A DNA stretch of 64,000 nucleotides from Dillenia suffruticosa. Its lineage: Eukaryota; Streptophyta; Magnoliopsida; Dilleniales; Dilleniaceae. The stretch is taken from contig JAVTVX010000029.1 in NCBI GenBank assembly GCA_033439265.1, positions 565,501 to 629,500 of the forward strand, in the 5' to 3' direction. The notes beneath the pieces were generated by a model that was not told the origin of the DNA, made no database searches, and saw only the letters and a program-made list of their open reading frames with translations. A program made the translations under genes and the position numbers. Positions 53,080-63,411 of this stretch are shown here, in pieces (positions within the stretch are counted from its first letter, which is position 1; each line of letters starts with the position of its first letter).

Positions 53080-55901
53080 TCAACGTCGCCAAGCAGAAGC
53101 TGCAAGGATGGCTCTATCTTGCCAGCCCAACAGTAAACAACCCTTATCCTCGGTCAACCTGTACCCATCACAGGAATACAAACCCAACAGTATCTTAGAC
53201 TGTGTCACTGCATTTGCGCTTAGCGGCACACCTTGAAAACCTTTCCCTTCCATCAATTTTCTCCACTTCTCCAACCTCTCATGTCTAAACACCCTCTCTG
53301 TTCCCTCGCTTGCCACTATATTCCTTATCTCGGGCGCAAATATGTACTGCTCCACCTTCGCCCTCTGCGCTGAATCGGCTGGAAACGTCGCATCCAATGA
53401 GTCAAAAATTGCAGAATAGAAATGCAAGGCCTCCAAGAACCTCCCCAAGAAGTAGGGTCCATTATGGCTTGCCTCTTTTTCAACAATGGTCACTATGTTT
53501 GGTGCTTGGTCTCTTATCATAGCCAACAATGTCCCCAGTGACTTTCCTGGCACACGGTGAAGCCGGTCAACTGAATTAACTGCTAGTGCTTCACCAACCC
53601 TTCTGTTGAACATGTGAGGTTTCAGGTCTTCTAGTTGCTCACCAACTGGGTGGAACTCAAATGGCACCTGGAGGGAATGGGCCAACTCGGCCAAACACCG
53701 GCCCGTCTCTCTGACAGACTCCGGTGATGGTCCAACTCCGGTAATCCGAAGAAATGGAGCACCACCGGGCCGGGCTGCCAGAGCTTGCATGAAAGCTGGC
53801 CATTGGTAGCCTTGGAGGATATCGAGGTCAATTACATGGACGCGCTCTTCGGCCTCAAAGGCCTCAAAGATGGCCTGGTTGGCAGTGAAATGAGCAAACT
53901 TTATGTAAGGACAAGCTTGGTAGAGAATTTGATAAATCTTGAGGATTTCTAGCGAGTTTGGAGGGAAAGGAGTGAAGGGTGTCTTTGGGGTGGAAGTGGG
54001 GGCCGGTGTGATGGCCAAGGTGGCAGCAAGTCGCGCGGAGAGGGCTTCGGTGAAGCAAGATGCGACGCGCTGCATGGAGTCGCCGAGAGGGGTCACAACT
54101 CGGTTGAGATGGTGGAGGTATCGTCTAGCCAACATGTAGTCTTCTTTTGCAACTGCTTCCGCACATGCGAGTAGGAGGTGCACCAGTTGAAGCCCACTAT
54201 CTTGTTCCTGTTGTGTTCATTCATCACATGAAAAAATAGTTTTACTTTGCAGGGACAACCGTAAAAGAAAAAAAAATGTACAGGTCTTAAAAGTGACACA
54301 TGGAATTGTGTATGATTATGGGACCACTACAAGTCGGGAGTGTTTTTAGGTATTGACAGCTATGGTATCGAAGACCTAAAAAATTAATATTTGAGGGGTC
54401 TGAATCAACCGTTACATTTCTTTTTTGGCCTTTGAGTATAATACACATGGTCACCTTAAAACGTTTATAAAAGGATAGTCTGGTAATCATAATCATCTTT
54501 TCTCAATCCTTAGATTTATGATTCAAATTCTTATATAACAAAAAAAAAAAAATACCTTAAAACAAACCATATTGCAAATCCGCTGCGGCCTGTTTAATAT
54601 TTGTTGTTGTTTGACCAAACTTTTTTTAATATAAGAAGGGCCCTTAGGCTTTGGATATTTTAAAGCATAATTAATATTTAATCATCTAATTATGATGAAG
54701 CAATTTCTTATTTTTATTAATAAAAAATAAATTAAGTTTTACATGATAATTTATATTATTGTGTCTTTAATTTAATTAAAAAGAAAACAACATATATGAA
54801 TACGAAATATTATATATAATTTGGTCCATTTAACATACTATTTATTTAGTGTACCCATTTTTTTTCTCCCTATCATGGTGAGAGAGAGTGAGAGAGATAA
54901 ACCTGGTCAGAGGAGCCAATGGAAACGGGACCCATCAAGCTGGTATTAAGATTTTGTCCGTGTTGCTGTTGTTGCTGTTGAGGAGGCTGTTTCTGTTGAT
55001 GATGTTGTTGTTGTTGTTGGAATCGTCTCTGCTGCTGTTGCAGTTGCTCTTGCTGCTTCTCCTGCTGTTTCTCTTGCTGTATTTGCTGAGACAATGGCGC
55101 AGTCTTACCTGCAGATGAGCCACCAGACCTAATCTGATGAACATCATCATCCTGAGTCACTTGCGAACTACCACCACCAGCCAAACTCACAGATTCACAA
55201 AACTTCGAAGAACATGAATTACTAGGCATTGCCAAGCAATCCAACATGGCAGGAATCGTGGTCGGCATCTCAAAACAGTCGGGTGAAAAGCTTCCCACCC
55301 CTGACATCTTCATCGTGGAGTAGGCTCCGAATCCATCCCTATGGTAGTCCTCCATAAACCCTTCGTAAATTGCTGGAGGGAGTGCGAGGCTTTCAGGTTG
55401 AATGAGATGGTTGTCGTTGTTATTGGAAGGAGAGTTACAAACCCTTTGAAGTGGGCTCTGACCTTTAACTTTGCTAGCAGTACTGAATGATCCTAATGGA
55501 GAGGACATGCGGGGCGGTGAGCAACCAAGCATGCTTTGTCCATGCATTGGATGCGCATAGTTGTAGTTGTAGTTGTAGTGTGATGTTTGTGGTGAAGGGA
55601 TGTTTCTAACTGGCGATGAGATCATGAAATCCGCATCGAGTTGATCAGAGAAGAATGACTCCCATATTGAGCTGTCTGGTGACTGAACTTCTATGTCCCC
55701 GTCCACGTCGAATTTGATTGGGTGCAAGTTGAGACTTGGAGGTATTAGTCCATTTTGTTCAATGTCCGATGAGTTTAGAGTTGTTGTGGATGACTTTTTC
55801 GATGCTGATATTGATGTTGATTCATTGGATGATGTTGGTAGCTTGGCGCATGAGTTTGCAGTTTTTAGACTTCCCATGCTACCGCAAAGGGAATTGATCA
55901 T
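53080..55901 (-). CDS. RAM1: GRAS-domain transcriptional regulator, RAM1 (REQUIRED FOR ARBUSCULAR MYCORRHIZATION 1) orthologue
   Basis: Two exons on the minus strand, 54903-55901 and 53080-54207, join in phase 0 (CAG|GT ... AG|GAA) to 708 residues. The N-terminal half ([17 protein letters not shown] onwards) is low-complexity: Ser-rich, a YNYNYNY stretch and a Gln-rich block (about residues 270-318). The GRAS domain follows: LHRI ([30 protein letters not shown]), VHIID as VHVIDLD (about 456), a PFYRE region with [13 protein letters not shown] and [15 protein letters not shown], and SAW ending ILAASAWRR. The N terminus and [19 protein letters not shown] match my memory of RAM1 rather than SCR, LAS or DELLA proteins; Medicago RAM1 is of similar length (about 680 residues). 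RAM1 acts downstream of CYCLOPS/CCaMK and drives arbuscule-branching and lipid-supply genes such as RAM2. Assignment was made without alignment. Confidence 0.82.
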
Positions 55902-56398
55902 GCTTTGTTTTCTTTCCTACCAGTAGAAGAAATAGAGAGAGAGAGAGAGTGAGAGAAAAAGAGAGAACAACAAAACTTGATACCAAGAAGCTCAAAGCTA
56001 TAATTATAAGCCAAAAAACACTACAAAAATAGAATATCTTTTATGTTATTCCAAAGCTCCCCTCAAAGTAACCTCAAGTTAACACATAGAAGAAAAAGCT
56101 GGAAAGCTTTGTGTTTTTCTCATCTTTTTTTTAATGGGAGAGATTTGTCAATATGTAGAGATTTGTTCTAAGAAGGAGAGAGAGTGATTCTAAAGACAAA
56201 ACCCAACACCAATTCCATGTTTGGAGTCTTGTGATTTTAGTTTCCTCCATTGTATCACCTTATAGTCGGTTAAGCTGTTTTCTAGAGTTTTATTTTTGTC
56301 CATACCCGTTTCAACTGCCTCTCATGTGTTTTGGAAGATTTGTAGGGTATGAAGGACAGATTTGATGGTCTGGGGCCCCTTTCCCCCATCTGCCTTGG

Positions 56399-56465
56399 GC
56401 CGGCTCAGCTGAGAACAAGGCATTCGGGGGAATAAAGGAGGATTTTTTTTTTCTTTTCTTGTTCT
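56399..56465. promoter_or_regulatory. Candidate mycorrhiza-responsive motif cluster upstream of RAM1 (GCCGGC and MYCS-like)
   Basis: About 500-560 bp upstream of the RAM1 ATG lie three motifs. GCCGGC (56399-56404) equals the palindromic core I recall for the CYCLOPS-bound AMCYC-RE of the Lotus RAM1 promoter. TTTCTTGTTCT (56455-56465) equals the MYCS motif described in mycorrhiza-inducible phosphate-transporter promoters. AGAACAAG at 56411-56418 is its inverted partial copy. The MYCS-like match sits beside a T-run, so chance is possible. Function is inferred from motif identity and position only. Confidence 0.45.
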
Positions 56466-57799
56466 TTAATGTTTAATAAATTCTCTGAATTATGATTACT
56501 TAGTCTAAGATGATTGGTTAATGCACAATGTATGATATGGTGAATGCTCGAGAAACACCATTCGAAAAGCCAAAATGACCTCAAAAGTCCTCATTGCGAG
56601 ATGGAATTTTATCATATTTGCTGAAGAGGCCCCTCAACTTTTACATATTTTGACTTCAAGGTTGCCAAGAATAAAAATTTTGTTCTTCCTACGTTACATT
56701 TCTCTTTTTTGAACAAATTAGTTAAATCACACACGGATCCACACGGCTTGGAAAAGACAGGATATTACAGGGCAAAAATCTTGAGCTTTAGGAGCTTTTA
56801 ATTCCTTCGATTTTTAATATTTTGAAAATTTTATTTATTATTGCTGAATGAAATTGTTAAATTATAAATTATTAAAAATTTTATAATAAGAATTTTCTAT
56901 AAAATGTTTCGGATAAAAGAATTGATAGACTAAAGCAAATCAATCCGATCCTATATGTTATTAGTTTGATTTAATTTTAAATTTTATAGAATCGTTGAAG
57001 TCTATTCTTAAAACCAATTCAAATTGCTTTATCCACACATTGCCCTGGCCCTTGTTGCTAGGTTTTCCTTACAGTTTTCTTGCCAATATTTTGGTGGAAC
57101 AGAGCCCTTTACCCCGGGATTATGCAGAAGATGATAATGAACTAGGACTTGAGTTTAGAAAGATTTACGAGAATTGAGGTTGTTCCTGCCAATATGCATT
57201 ATCTCAGGATCCCTTCTGCAATAAAGCGCTTAGATAAAAATGGGACTTTATTCGGGGAGGGGGAAAGGAAAAGAAATGATACGCGTGAAAACGATAGAGA
57301 AAAAAGTCAAGAGGAATAGGGACAAAATACAAGGCATTGGTCTCGTCGGACATGGCGTCGGTGACGCCGCCTATGCTTTGGATTTGCCAAAGGAACGAAG
57401 CGCTTGTCTCCTCTCCTCACATTTTCTTTTTTCTCAACACAACTCTCTCTCTCTCTCTCTCTCTCTCTGGTTTACAAACCAAAGCCCAAAGCAGGCCCAA
57501 AAGGAGACAAGGCAAACTAGAGCCTTGTCACTCTGTGTTTTTTTTTTTTAAAAATCTCAGGATTTGGTCCAATCGCTGAATATTTGAATCTTTACTCTGA
57601 TTAATTTCAGTTGAATTATTATCCATTTCCAATTGAAAAAGAGCTCTTCCAACGTCATTTTTATCACTATCAAAATTTAAACCCTAATTCTTAACGTAGG
57701 GTATTAATATTTTTTTCACTATACCAAACTCAATTTAAAATGTATCGGGACACGTGATAATCTAAACCACAAACTCTCCCCAATTATATTGAATTGTTC

Positions 57800-57863: not shown

Positions 57864-58696
57864 TATGAAGCTTGCATTATTGCAGACTGCCGATTGGTCA
57901 GCAATGTCTTTACAAAGAATTGCATCTTCGTCGCTTATTACTACATTACAAACTCCATTAATTGCAACTCTAATGTGTCAAACGCATTCTATAAGTTTCG
58001 GGTGACACCTTTTAATGTTTAACCATTATAATTTACATGGTAAAATCTTGAAAAAAAAAAGCATATCTAAATAATATATTCGTATTAACTATTTTACGAT
58101 AAAGAGATTTTTTATACGACAAAAATAACAATTGTAGTCTCTTTATCTTTTCTTTTATTAACAAAAAGAATAATAATTTCTATTTTAAATTTCAAATTAA
58201 CTATAGAAGTTATATATTTACATAATTACAGAATTTACTTTTAAAAATTACATTAGAACAACTTTCAATTCCTTCCTACAATAGAAGGATGACGACCGGT
58301 CGTTAAAATTTTTTTGGACAAAGTTATCCATAAAAAGAAATCAAATTTCTTTATCAAGAGATTATTGTAATAATAAATCTTTTTATTAAAAATATTATTT
58401 AATTTTAATAGAATCTAATCTTAATTTTCCCGAGCCTCCTATTAATATGTTATTTTTTTATTTTTTTTTGTTTTCTGGATTTGGTTCACCGTCGAGTATC
58501 CAGAGTTTTGCTTAGACTAATCTCGGTCGAATTGTTGTCGGGTTCTGATAGGGAGAGAGCTTTCCTAACATCGTTTTTACCGTTCCAAAAACTTGAATTT
58601 CAATTCTTAATATAGGATAATAGTATGATCAACGAAACGTTGGTATTGATATGTTATTATCATCGCCCATGATTTTAAATCTCGGTGTTATGGACT

Positions 58697-59263
58697 TTTT
58701 CTCCCTGTTGGAGCTGAAATGCCCGCCAATAAGGGCTGTTTTCTATCAGCATGACATTTCTATTTCAGGCTTTTAGGATGGTACCAAACAGGCTGTTAGG
58801 GCCCAATGACCTCTGCAGAAAGCTACCTGGTGCTGGTACCAAACAGCCTTTTCCTCCCTGCTGGACCCGAAATGCCCGCCACTAATGGGCTCTAGTTTTT
58901 TGGTACCTATATGGGTATTCGGAATTTATTCCAATTATTTTTTTCGAATGTCTAGGGAATCCTATTGAGGGTATAGTTTTCCTAATATAGTTTTTTTTAT
59001 TCTAAAGTTTTAAATCCAAATTTGCTAAGAAATCTAATATCTCATTCCATTATACCGACTATTGATGGGTTAACGTGCTCTGATTTACTATTATTACAAG
59101 AGCTGTTTGAAAACCAAAAAAAAATAAAAAAGCAAGAGCTGTTTTGCATCACCACGGCATTTTCATTTCAGGCTTTTAGGACAAATGGGCTAGGACAGTA
59201 ATCGTACCAAGCAGGCTGCTAGGGCCCAATGACCTCTGCAGAAAGCTACCAGGTTGCTGGTCC

Positions 59264-59555: not shown

Positions 59556-60450
59556 AAAGAGATCTTGCGTCCCCAACCTAGTGGTCCTGGTGGTCACAAT
59601 TTCCTGATCTCATATATGTGTATAAGAAAAAAAAAAAAGGAAAAGATCCTGCAAGAGATCCTTTCACAAAAGATCCAAACGAACAAGGTAAAAAGGCACA
59701 ATACCTTTCTTAACTGTGTAGAGAATGAGCTTTAAAACATGAGCTCCTGTCTTCCGGAATGTGAAAAGCTTGTCATATTATATTATTTTTTAAAACTTCT
59801 TCTATAAGTAATACTCTCATTCTATGTTCTTAGGACATCAAAATACAATCCTACAGATAAATCAAACATAGGTATCAAAGCAAAGCTACAAATTTAAAAT
59901 TATCGATTTCTATTTTTGGTCACTGTCTTGACATGTGCCGTAGTAAGGAGCACCACCGTTGGTGCTTAACATGAGCTTTTGAAAAATATATAAATGTAAG
60001 TAACCCAGAAAAGACCAGCTTCTGGGTAAATCAAGATTCGAAATTTCCCTTCGAGAAACCAACAAAAAACCTAATCTTTTGTGGGTAAGAAATGAAGTAG
60101 TTTAATTTCAGCTAGCTTTGTCTATTTTCTTATTTGGAAACTCAAAACCCTCCAATCCAATCATGTGTGCCCACACCTAAATACTCTCTCTCTCTCTCTC
60201 TCTCTCAGAGATCAAAATACGCCAAAACACGTTCACATGTTTTTGTTTGTTGTGACAGAAAGGTTCTCTCATCTCTCTACTCTTTATAGATCAGAGTTGG
60301 GGTTCTCCATCAATAACTTTGGCCTCACTATCCACTCACTTCTCCAACCATACACATGATAAGGCTCTTCTTTTGGAAGGCTTCTCCCCTAAAGTACTGA
60401 AATATCAACTCGCACATATACACAAAACATTTCATGTGGAACATCTAACT

Positions 60451-61041
60451 ATGTTTCCCATTCTTCTCTTTTTGCTTTCAACCCTTTTCACCCAATCATT
60501 TTCTACCCATAATGCACATCCTAAAATCATCAATCCGCAGATCGCAGTAATGGGTGTTGTTTACTGTGACATTTGCTCTAACAACACCTTCACTCGACAC
60601 AGCTACTTCATACCAGGTAGCCAAAGTTTCAAATTTCTCATACTTCGAGTTTGTCTGGGTACCCAAAAAAAATGAAGTTTGATGATGTAAATCTTGCGTG
60701 CAGGAGTTGAAGTTGAAATAAATTGCAAATTCAAAGCTGTTTCACCAAGAACTGTGGAGCAGATTGAGTTCTCAGTCAACAGAACCACAAACAGATTTGG
60801 AATGTACCACCTGGAAATACCATCTGTTGATGGAATTCAATGTGCAACAGAATCAGCACTAAAGTCTTCATGCCAGGCAAGTTTGATGTGGACTTCATCT
60901 TCATCATGTAATGTTCCTGGATATAGAACAACAACCAATGAGATAGCCATAAAGTCTAAACGAGATAATGTCTGCTTTTACAGCCTCAGTGCCTTGAATT
61001 ATAGACCGAATCAAAGAAATAAAGCTCTCTGTGGAAATTAG
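60451..61041 (+). CDS. Pollen Ole e 1 / extensin-like secreted protein, two exons
   Basis: Exons 60451-60616 and 60704-61041 (CCA G|GTAGCC ... GCAG|GA GTT) encode 167 residues. Residues 1-20 or so (MFPILLFLLSTLFTQSFS) are a signal peptide, so the product is probably secreted to the cell wall. The mature part starts its Ole e 1 domain with IAVMGVVYCDICSNNTFTRH, then FIPGVEVEINCKF, and carries the family's spaced cysteines (YCDIC, INCKF, IQCATE, SSCQAS, SSCNVP, VCFYS, LCGN). One Asn-X-Ser/Thr site is in NRTTN and another in NNTFT. The biochemical role of the family is not settled; members occur in pollen tubes and other walls. The ATG at 60451 is chosen because it gives the signal peptide directly. 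Confidence 0.85.
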
Positions 61042-61903: not shown

Positions 61904-63411
61904 TTAGATCTGCATAAGCTCTTGGAAGATTGTCATGGCAGAAGCCGGCAATCCAAGCAACACGTTTATGCTCTTCCTTTCTTTTCCATGAGATAGGAAT
62001 AAGGTCACTTCCTTCTCAGGCAAAGCCACAGGCCCCGACAACACAGGCTCTCCCCATCCAAAGTCTGTTGTGTGGAAAGAGAGTCTAGACCAAGTGGTGA
62101 TCAAAAGTGTGCAAGCCAAAGACGGCCTAGCTCTTGTCACTTCAAAATAATCAATCGCAGATCGCATGTAATCATCTGTCACCATCTTGATTGCCTTTTG
62201 AACTTGTCCAACTGCAAAGGAAAGTGGTTTTCCTAGTAGCTCACCAGCTTGGCATAAAGAGTTTGTCAGCACAATTCCATTACCAAAGTACCCACTTGGC
62301 AGAGGAGGGTCAAATTTAGCTCGTCCATCAACCGCAAAAAGAAGCTTTGTCTGTTGTTCAGGCTGCAAACTTAAAGCCTCAGTTCGAGCCCTCCACACAA
62401 AAGCAGATATGGCTTCAAATACAGAACATTTCTCCAAAACCCCATCTTCCAAGGCTTTCTTCTTGAGATTTTGGAGCATATCTGGCTCAAAACAAAAGGA
62501 CCTGTATTGCATTTCCTCTTTGTAAAGCTCTTGTGTGTTAGACATGTCTTCAATTTCTGCAAATTCATGATGTGGATATCCGATCTTGGGTGGACTCCGA
62601 GCTCGAAGAATGCTTCTGTCTAGGAAAGGCTTCACAGTTATTGGCACACTTCTGGCTGTTTCACCCCAAGAGTTCACAAACTCCATAGCTCCAAGCCCAT
62701 CAAACATACAGTGGTTCATTCCCAGGCCAAGAACAAATCCTCCGCACTTGAATCTAGTGACCTAGCACACAGGATCATAAGATACATAACATGTTTAATA
62801 AAAAGTTAAATATTTATCTCAAAAAAAAAAAGAAAGAAAAGAAAAGAAAAAACAGATAACCATAGTTACAGGTAGGCTATGTCAAAGTAATACATGCAGA
62901 GTTGCCTAAACTTGTCTAGTTGTAGCGAAAAGGACCAAGTACTAAGCAAATCTGCATTCAATTTAGATACCTGAGCAACAAGAGGAGGCATTTCCAATAT
63001 GTTCCTTGCTCCAGGAACATCATAAACAAGCTTTCCAAGAGTAACCGGGTCAGGCTTAGTTGTGTCTCCGATTCCATCCAAAGTGCAGTTTGCTTCAGCC
63101 TCCACAAAAACAGCACCCTCACCATTGCAGTCAACTATGAGCTTTCCTTCGGCACTGATTGTGAGCCTTCCAGCAAGTGGATAATAGTGGACAAGAACCT
63201 TTCCCAATGCCTCTCTAAGAACTTTTCCAGCTCTCTCATTTCCTTCCTTATCTGACCTGAAGCAATATATTGTCCGAACAATCACAGCGATGTTTTGATC
63301 AAGGTTTGAGAGGAAGTAGAGACCCTTTTCGGTTTCCTCTGCAGGAACAACAAGAGTTGGTTCTCCTTGCATCACCATGAGTTCAAATGCAGACCCCTTA
63401 CAGTTTTCCAT
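61904..63411 (-). CDS. HHT1: BAHD acyltransferase: omega-hydroxypalmitate O-feruloyl transferase (HHT1/ASFT), two exons
   Basis: The enzyme transfers feruloyl from feruloyl-CoA to omega-hydroxy fatty acids and fatty alcohols, supplying the aromatic esters of suberin in root endodermis, periderm and seed coat; it is cytosolic. Exons 62971-63411 and 61904-62761 (minus) join at CAG|GTATC ... TAG|GTCACT in phase 0 to 432 residues, the usual BAHD length. Catalytic HxxxD is HCMFD (residues 164-168, in [15 protein letters not shown]), and the structural DFGWG is intact at about 380-384 ([20 protein letters not shown]). The block [20 protein letters not shown] near the N terminus and [17 protein letters not shown] near the C terminus are characteristic of Arabidopsis ASFT (At5g41040). 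ATG 63411 is the first in frame. A 5'UTR intron is plausible (acceptor just upstream, donor near 63640). Confidence 0.9.

Follow-up and report, generated by a model that had tools for sequence, protein, structure and literature searches.

A probable CYCLOPS element with MYCS-like cores beside it, upstream of a RAM1-like gene in Dillenia suffruticosa

The question raised by this locus is whether a short group of motifs about 0.5 kb upstream of a RAM1-like gene acts as a symbiotic enhancer, and which of the motifs would contribute to it. For the window, i.e., the whole 64,000-nucleotide stretch of DNA analyzed here, the initial annotation had proposed that a GCCGGC palindrome, the core of the CYCLOPS response element, forms such an enhancer together with MYCS-like sites, which would add a second input not usually discussed for RAM1. 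GCCGGC, CTTGTTCT and an 11-mer were each found at the coordinates it gave, approximately 0.5 kb upstream of the ATG. The gene and the motifs are arranged as follows:

53080..54207, minus strand: RAM1 exon 2, the GRAS domain, which holds 14 of the 14 published WRI-contact residues
54903..55901, minus strand: RAM1 exon 1, with the ATG at 55901 and a RAM1-type N-terminal motif
56399..56404, no strand: GCCGGC, the palindromic core of the CYCLOPS response element (AMCYC-RE), spanning -503 to -498 relative to the ATG of RAM1
56412..56419, minus strand: CTTGTTCT, MYCS/CTTC core in gene orientation (window letters AGAACAAG), -518 to -511
56415-56420: CCTTGT (cMYCS), overlapping the sense CTTGTTCT copy and using its preceding base
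56455..56465, plus strand: TTTCTTGTTCT, the MYCS 11-mer as named in the initial annotation, antisense to the gene, -564 to -554

In terms of MYCS content, the cluster holds two copies of the CTTGTTC core, located 8 and 53 bp past GCCGGC, and one copy of TTCTTGTT, and all three motifs fall within 67 bp. The spacer is AT-rich as previously described, but this does not extend to 56351-56450, where the G+C content is higher (0.60 and 0.46 for two bins of 50 bp). The 11-mer TTTCTTGTTCT is located in a T/C-rich tract, where a sequence of this kind is favored. Its 11-letter form is that of the initial annotation, the cores given in the literature examined being TTCTTGTT or CTTGTTC.

The gene next to the cluster is, judged from its sequence, very probably RAM1. 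GT/AG splicing from 54903 to 54207 joins two exons in a single frame of 708 amino acids. Exon 2 encodes a GRAS domain (Pfam PF03514, E 2e-123) with SCARECROW as the top-scoring neighbor among solved structures, and an NCBIfam search with this exon returned no family. The 21-residue N-terminal motif of the RAM1 group printed by Cenci and Rouard (PMC5332381, Table 2) is matched by the window protein at 12 of 21 positions. QSPL is missing from seven other GRAS pieces of the same genome, although the N-terminal ends of these pieces may be incomplete. Furthermore, Paries et al. (2025; PMC12130850) list 14 residues of LjRAM1 as predicted contacts with CBX1, a WRI protein, and the window protein has all 14, compared to 7 to 12 in seven other GRAS proteins of this genome (L021-L027). 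As part of these sites is common to GRAS proteins generally, the complete set supports the RAM1 name without proving it. A search of the genome (596 Mb, 37 contigs) detected no second RAM1 copy, with no other GRAS match exceeding 51% identity, and hence no homoeologous promoter for a conservation test. The RAM1-like gene of the initial annotation is accordingly upheld as a two-exon gene, detected in one copy, with both the N-terminal motif and the contact residues. By eye, motifs in L021 and L023 resemble the printed RAD1-2 and RAD1-1 group motifs, respectively (PMC5332381), which suggests that the plant retains a mycorrhizal set of GRAS genes.

GCCGGC upstream of RAM1 has a published function. 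CYCLOPS activated by CCaMK, together with DELLA, activates RAM1 via the GCCGGC core of the AMCYC-RE (PMC12130850, PMC12830364). The same core is found in the promoters of CBX1 and WRI3, while those of WRI5a-c are said to be without it (PMC12130850). A motif spanning the CYCLOPS site in RAM1 promoters reaches beyond the nodulating clade (PMC12830364), and GCCGGC is over-represented in mycorrhiza-induced promoters of Medicago, mostly less than 500 bp from the ATG (Favre et al.; PMC4274732). The window copy is the same palindrome as the AMCYC-RE of the Lotus RAM1 promoter and lies upstream of the orthologous gene. It differs in having CTTGTTCT cores alongside, which are undescribed for RAM1 in the portions of the literature examined. 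PACE, the CYCLOPS element of NIN promoters, is similar in being a CYCLOPS-bound type of element upstream of a symbiosis regulator. However, PACE is described from NIN promoters of the nodulating clade only (PMC12830364), whereas the gene here is RAM1 and the core is of the GCCGGC type.

The published distribution of the core across WRI genes was compared with the WRI-like genes of this genome. Ten WRI-like loci were fetched and eight scored; L036 and L037 were left out, as the patterns used detected no exon 1 or M2 motif in them. Two of the scored loci are CBX1/WRI3-like:

C13 16719000-16725800: L028, CBX1/WRI3-like, encodes SALGLLLQSSKFKE, with upstream GCCGGC
C35 8847600-8854400: L029, CBX1/WRI3-like, encodes SALGLLLQSSKFKE, with upstream GCCGGC

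In both genes, SALGLLLQSSKFKE is identical to the M2 helix of CBX1, and GCCGGC lies at -148 (L028) and -172 (L029) from the ATG, in a promoter block which is well conserved between the two. L028 and L029 are paralogues and perhaps homoeologous, and the two promoters must therefore be counted as one case. The four WRI5-like loci (L032-L035) have the M2 form LGLLLRSS[VI]F, or LSLLLRSSVF in L034, and the name of this class is interpretive. No GCCGGC was detected within 2.5 kb upstream of any of these four, nor within 2.5 kb upstream of the two other WRI-like genes (L030 and L031), in which M2 was not found. Among the eight loci scored of ten, the core is thus distributed as published, with both CBX1/WRI3-like genes carrying it and none of the six others. 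The flanks of GCCGGC in RAM1 and in the CBX1-like genes gave no significant best local alignment (114 of 2000 shuffles scored as high), and a longer element common to these sites was dropped as a candidate. Within the WRI5-like class, L032 (C24 3805500-3811200) and L033 (3856800-3862500) have a near-identical exon 1 and lie approximately 51 kb apart on the same contig, probably as a tandem duplication, and L034 on C26 is a third relative of this pair.

Taken singly, the motifs are close to what is expected in the 64-kb window, with 2 GCCGGC observed against 1.39 expected and 4 CTTGTTCT against 3.76, while the 11-mer was found once against 0.15. A genome sample of 249,036 bases, coding parts included, contains 18 copies of GCCGGC, which corresponds to a chance of about 4% of finding the palindrome in any 500 bp. 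Of five control stretches upstream of other GRAS genes (approximately 1.2 kb each), one contains GCCGGC, and this stretch, beside a DELLA-like gene, takes in some 250 bp of coding frame. The combination is far less common. GCCGGC with two CTTGTTC cores within 70 bp did not appear in any of 20,000 dinucleotide shuffles of the upstream 1 kb or, equally, of the upstream 2 kb, nor in 10,000 shuffles of the upstream 3 kb. With at least one CTTGTTC, the fractions were 0 (1 kb), 0.00095 (2 kb) and 0.0011 (3 kb). In 18 sampled genome stretches (180 kb), GCCGGC was found 10 times and CTTGTTC 23 times, with no occurrence of the 11-mer and no GCCGGC-CTTGTTC pair within 70 bp.

Across the whole 596 Mb, GCCGGC and CTTGTTC lie at most 30 bp apart in 149 places (70 and 79 in the two orientations), or about 2.5e-4 per kb, and nine members of the group of 79 seem to derive from a single repeat. 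The backward-pattern controls gave 59 and 58, so that real pairs amount to 1.27 times the control, which is little excess. The full arrangement, i.e., GCCGGC followed by GAACAAG within 30 bp and by CTTGTTC after a further 20 to 50, occurs once in 596 Mb, at RAM1. A rough expectation, based on the 70 pairs and the sampled CTTGTTC rate, is about 0.14 such arrangements genome-wide. Its uniqueness is therefore not striking by itself; what is striking is that the single copy sits at RAM1.

Based on the sequence, the stretch is probably a promoter-proximal symbiotic element of RAM1 with GCCGGC as the CYCLOPS switch. Two other explanations have to be weighed against this. GCCGGC is a palindromic form of the GCC element and can be bound by RAP2.11 (PMC4274732), and an ethylene-response factor, not CYCLOPS, could accordingly use it as a GCC-box-like site. 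We consider this improbable, as CYCLOPS-dependent activation via GCCGGC is published for RAM1, CBX1 and WRI3 (PMC12130850) and the pattern of RAM1 and CBX1-like genes recurs in this genome. Nor is it at all likely that the cluster arose by chance where a locally G+C-rich patch adjoins a T/C-rich tract. The near-expected counts of GCCGGC and CTTGTTCT in the window would fit such an origin, as would the 0.14 arrangements expected somewhere in the genome and the fact that the motifs were picked from several known ones after the sequence had been viewed. However, the motifs were never found jointly in 20,000 shuffles, pairs are as rare as 2.5e-4 per kb in the genome, and the cluster is located at a gene where the GCCGGC half is predicted.

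The preferred reading is therefore that of a CYCLOPS switch, and the identification of GCCGGC as the AMCYC-RE core made in the initial annotation is backed both by the literature (PMC12130850, PMC12830364) and by the pattern in the plant's own CBX1/WRI3-like genes. We infer CYCLOPS binding and induction at this site from published work on Lotus and other plants. Upon fungal colonization, CCaMK-activated CYCLOPS, together with DELLA, would bind GCCGGC about 500 bp before the ATG and turn RAM1 on, and the CBX1/WRI3-like genes, with the same core near the ATG, would be switched on together with it. A CYCLOPS core in the RAM1 promoter is already known, and the window presents the expected element in a further species. 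This extends the published core to RAM1 of another plant, whose CBX1/WRI3-like genes show the same pattern, and the first wave of control over mycorrhizal genes accordingly looks intact there.

The MYCS-like half of the cluster is a different matter. The published MYCS/CTTC core is CTTGTTC or TTCTTGTT (PMC12130850, PMC4274732), and the extended GACTTGTTC is the form enriched in mycorrhiza genes (PMC4274732). The sites at RAM1 share the CTTGTTC/TTCTTGTT core with the MYCS/CTTC and cMYCS elements of the PT4, RAM2, STR and WRI5 promoters, and CCTTGT overlaps one copy. They differ in being an inverted pair, in lying in a RAM1 promoter and in lacking the longer GACTTGTTC, and should be regarded as candidate sites only. 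Of the proposed MYCS input, the exact core words are present, but GACTTGTTC is absent from the 64-kb window, and such sites are few in the WRI5-like promoters, with CTTGTTC in one of four (-1216) and TTCTTGTT in one of four (-1952). CCTTGT is found in three of these four promoters, nearest at -819, and AW-box matches in all four. L030 and L031 have one CTTGTTC each, at -2109 and -230. In 3 kb, the promoters of the CBX1-like genes (L028, L029) contain a single TTCTTGTT, in L029 at -1028, and CTTGTTC is absent from both. The two CTTGTTC cores upstream of RAM1 are plausible WRI/CBX1 sites on the basis of these words, but it is rather doubtful that they are functional.

The description of this second input as not usually discussed was partly justified. 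Mutual activation of RAM1 and WRI5a has been reported (PMC10505183, PMC8996055), so the input as such has been considered, whereas the portions of the literature examined do not mention a MYCS site in the promoter of RAM1. A review reports that the RAM1 promoter is AW-box-free and, for this reason, that the route between RAM1 and WRI might be indirect (PMC10505183, PMC8996055). The RAM1 promoter of the window differs, with four matches to the AW-box pattern in 3 kb. As the whole window has 29 matches, about 1.4 would be expected in such a stretch. Three of the four overlap at -1434 to -1468 (57335-57369, minus strand of the gene), in a G+C-richer patch outside the motif cluster, and the fourth is located at approximately -2.7 kb. 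The matches at about -1.45 kb may offer WRI proteins another route to RAM1, in which case WRI feedback on RAM1 would not need the MYCS pair. P1BS (GNATATNC) was not detected in the 3 kb upstream of RAM1, where a CTTC-P1BS module is accordingly absent. In rice, by contrast, PHR is said to target RAM1 (PMC9180548, PMC10505183).

Given these data, a composite enhancer in which CYCLOPS starts RAM1 via GCCGGC, and a WRI protein (CBX1, WRI3 or WRI5) together with RAM1 sustains it on the inverted CTTGTTCT pair, can be proposed only tentatively and is on the whole unlikely. Two CTTGTTCT cores and GCCGGC within 67 bp, seen in 0 of 20,000 shuffles and once in 596 Mb, are consistent with it, and one of the cores is inside the exact 11-mer while the other overlaps CCTTGT, the sequence through which RAM1-CBX1 activates WRI5b (PMC12130850). 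The window RAM1 also retains 14 of 14 WRI-contact residues, and the reported mutual activation of RAM1 and WRI5a, for which the review suggests a possibly indirect route, likewise fits (PMC10505183, PMC8996055). However, GCCGGC-CTTGTTC pairs are only 1.27 times as frequent as the backward control, the WRI5-like promoters are poor in sites and the CBX1-like ones have no CTTGTTC in 3 kb, while L031, a WRI-like gene without M2 and of non-mycorrhizal type, does have one at -230. The lack of GACTTGTTC from the window and the AW-box matches at about -1.45 kb also argue against the composite enhancer. Its temporal form would be a two-step latch, where CYCLOPS fires RAM1 via GCCGGC and RAM1-WRI complexes then hold expression via the inverted CTTGTTCT pair, and this we regard as speculative and somewhat less likely again. 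Should the MYCS pair be functional, RAM1 would sustain itself directly in arbuscule cells, and the feedback of WRI factors on RAM1 would become a testable question. The latch, if true, would provide a direct cis-basis for the positive feedback between RAM1 and WRI, which the review considers possibly indirect.

Some other features of the region were considered and set aside. The palindrome lies in the loop of a dyad:

56381..56432, no strand: imperfect dyad with 17-nt arms (56381-56397 and 56416-56432), 82% complementary, GCCGGC in the loop

One CTTGTTCT core extends into the right arm of this dyad. Comparable dyads were found in 12 of 64 one-kb tiles of the window and in 7 of 150 shuffles. 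Being this common, the dyad around GCCGGC is probably not meaningful, and it was rejected as a functional feature on these frequencies. A bacterial promoter scan of the region upstream of RAM1 was also disregarded, as it is not meaningful in a plant. Among viral contigs, the search for the sequence of relatives gave nine pattern matches, none of which was confirmed.

Further upstream of RAM1, at 2.8 to 3.4 kb, diverged direct repeats are found at 58695-58888 and 59134-59254. The repeat units are 48 and 54 nt, 83% and 93% alike and approximately 400 bp apart, and there is also a 41-nt pair 153 bp apart; these repeats may stem from an old duplication within the region. Across the RAM1 spacer, 60256-61041 (plus strand) probably is a gene of two exons, and its small secreted product resembles the Ole e 1 family. 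It is followed at 61904-63411 (minus strand) by a BAHD-type acyltransferase gene, probably of two exons, where Pfam assigns the Transferase family to 61904-62719. The only other GCCGGC of the window, at 61944-61949, is located inside this acyltransferase gene.
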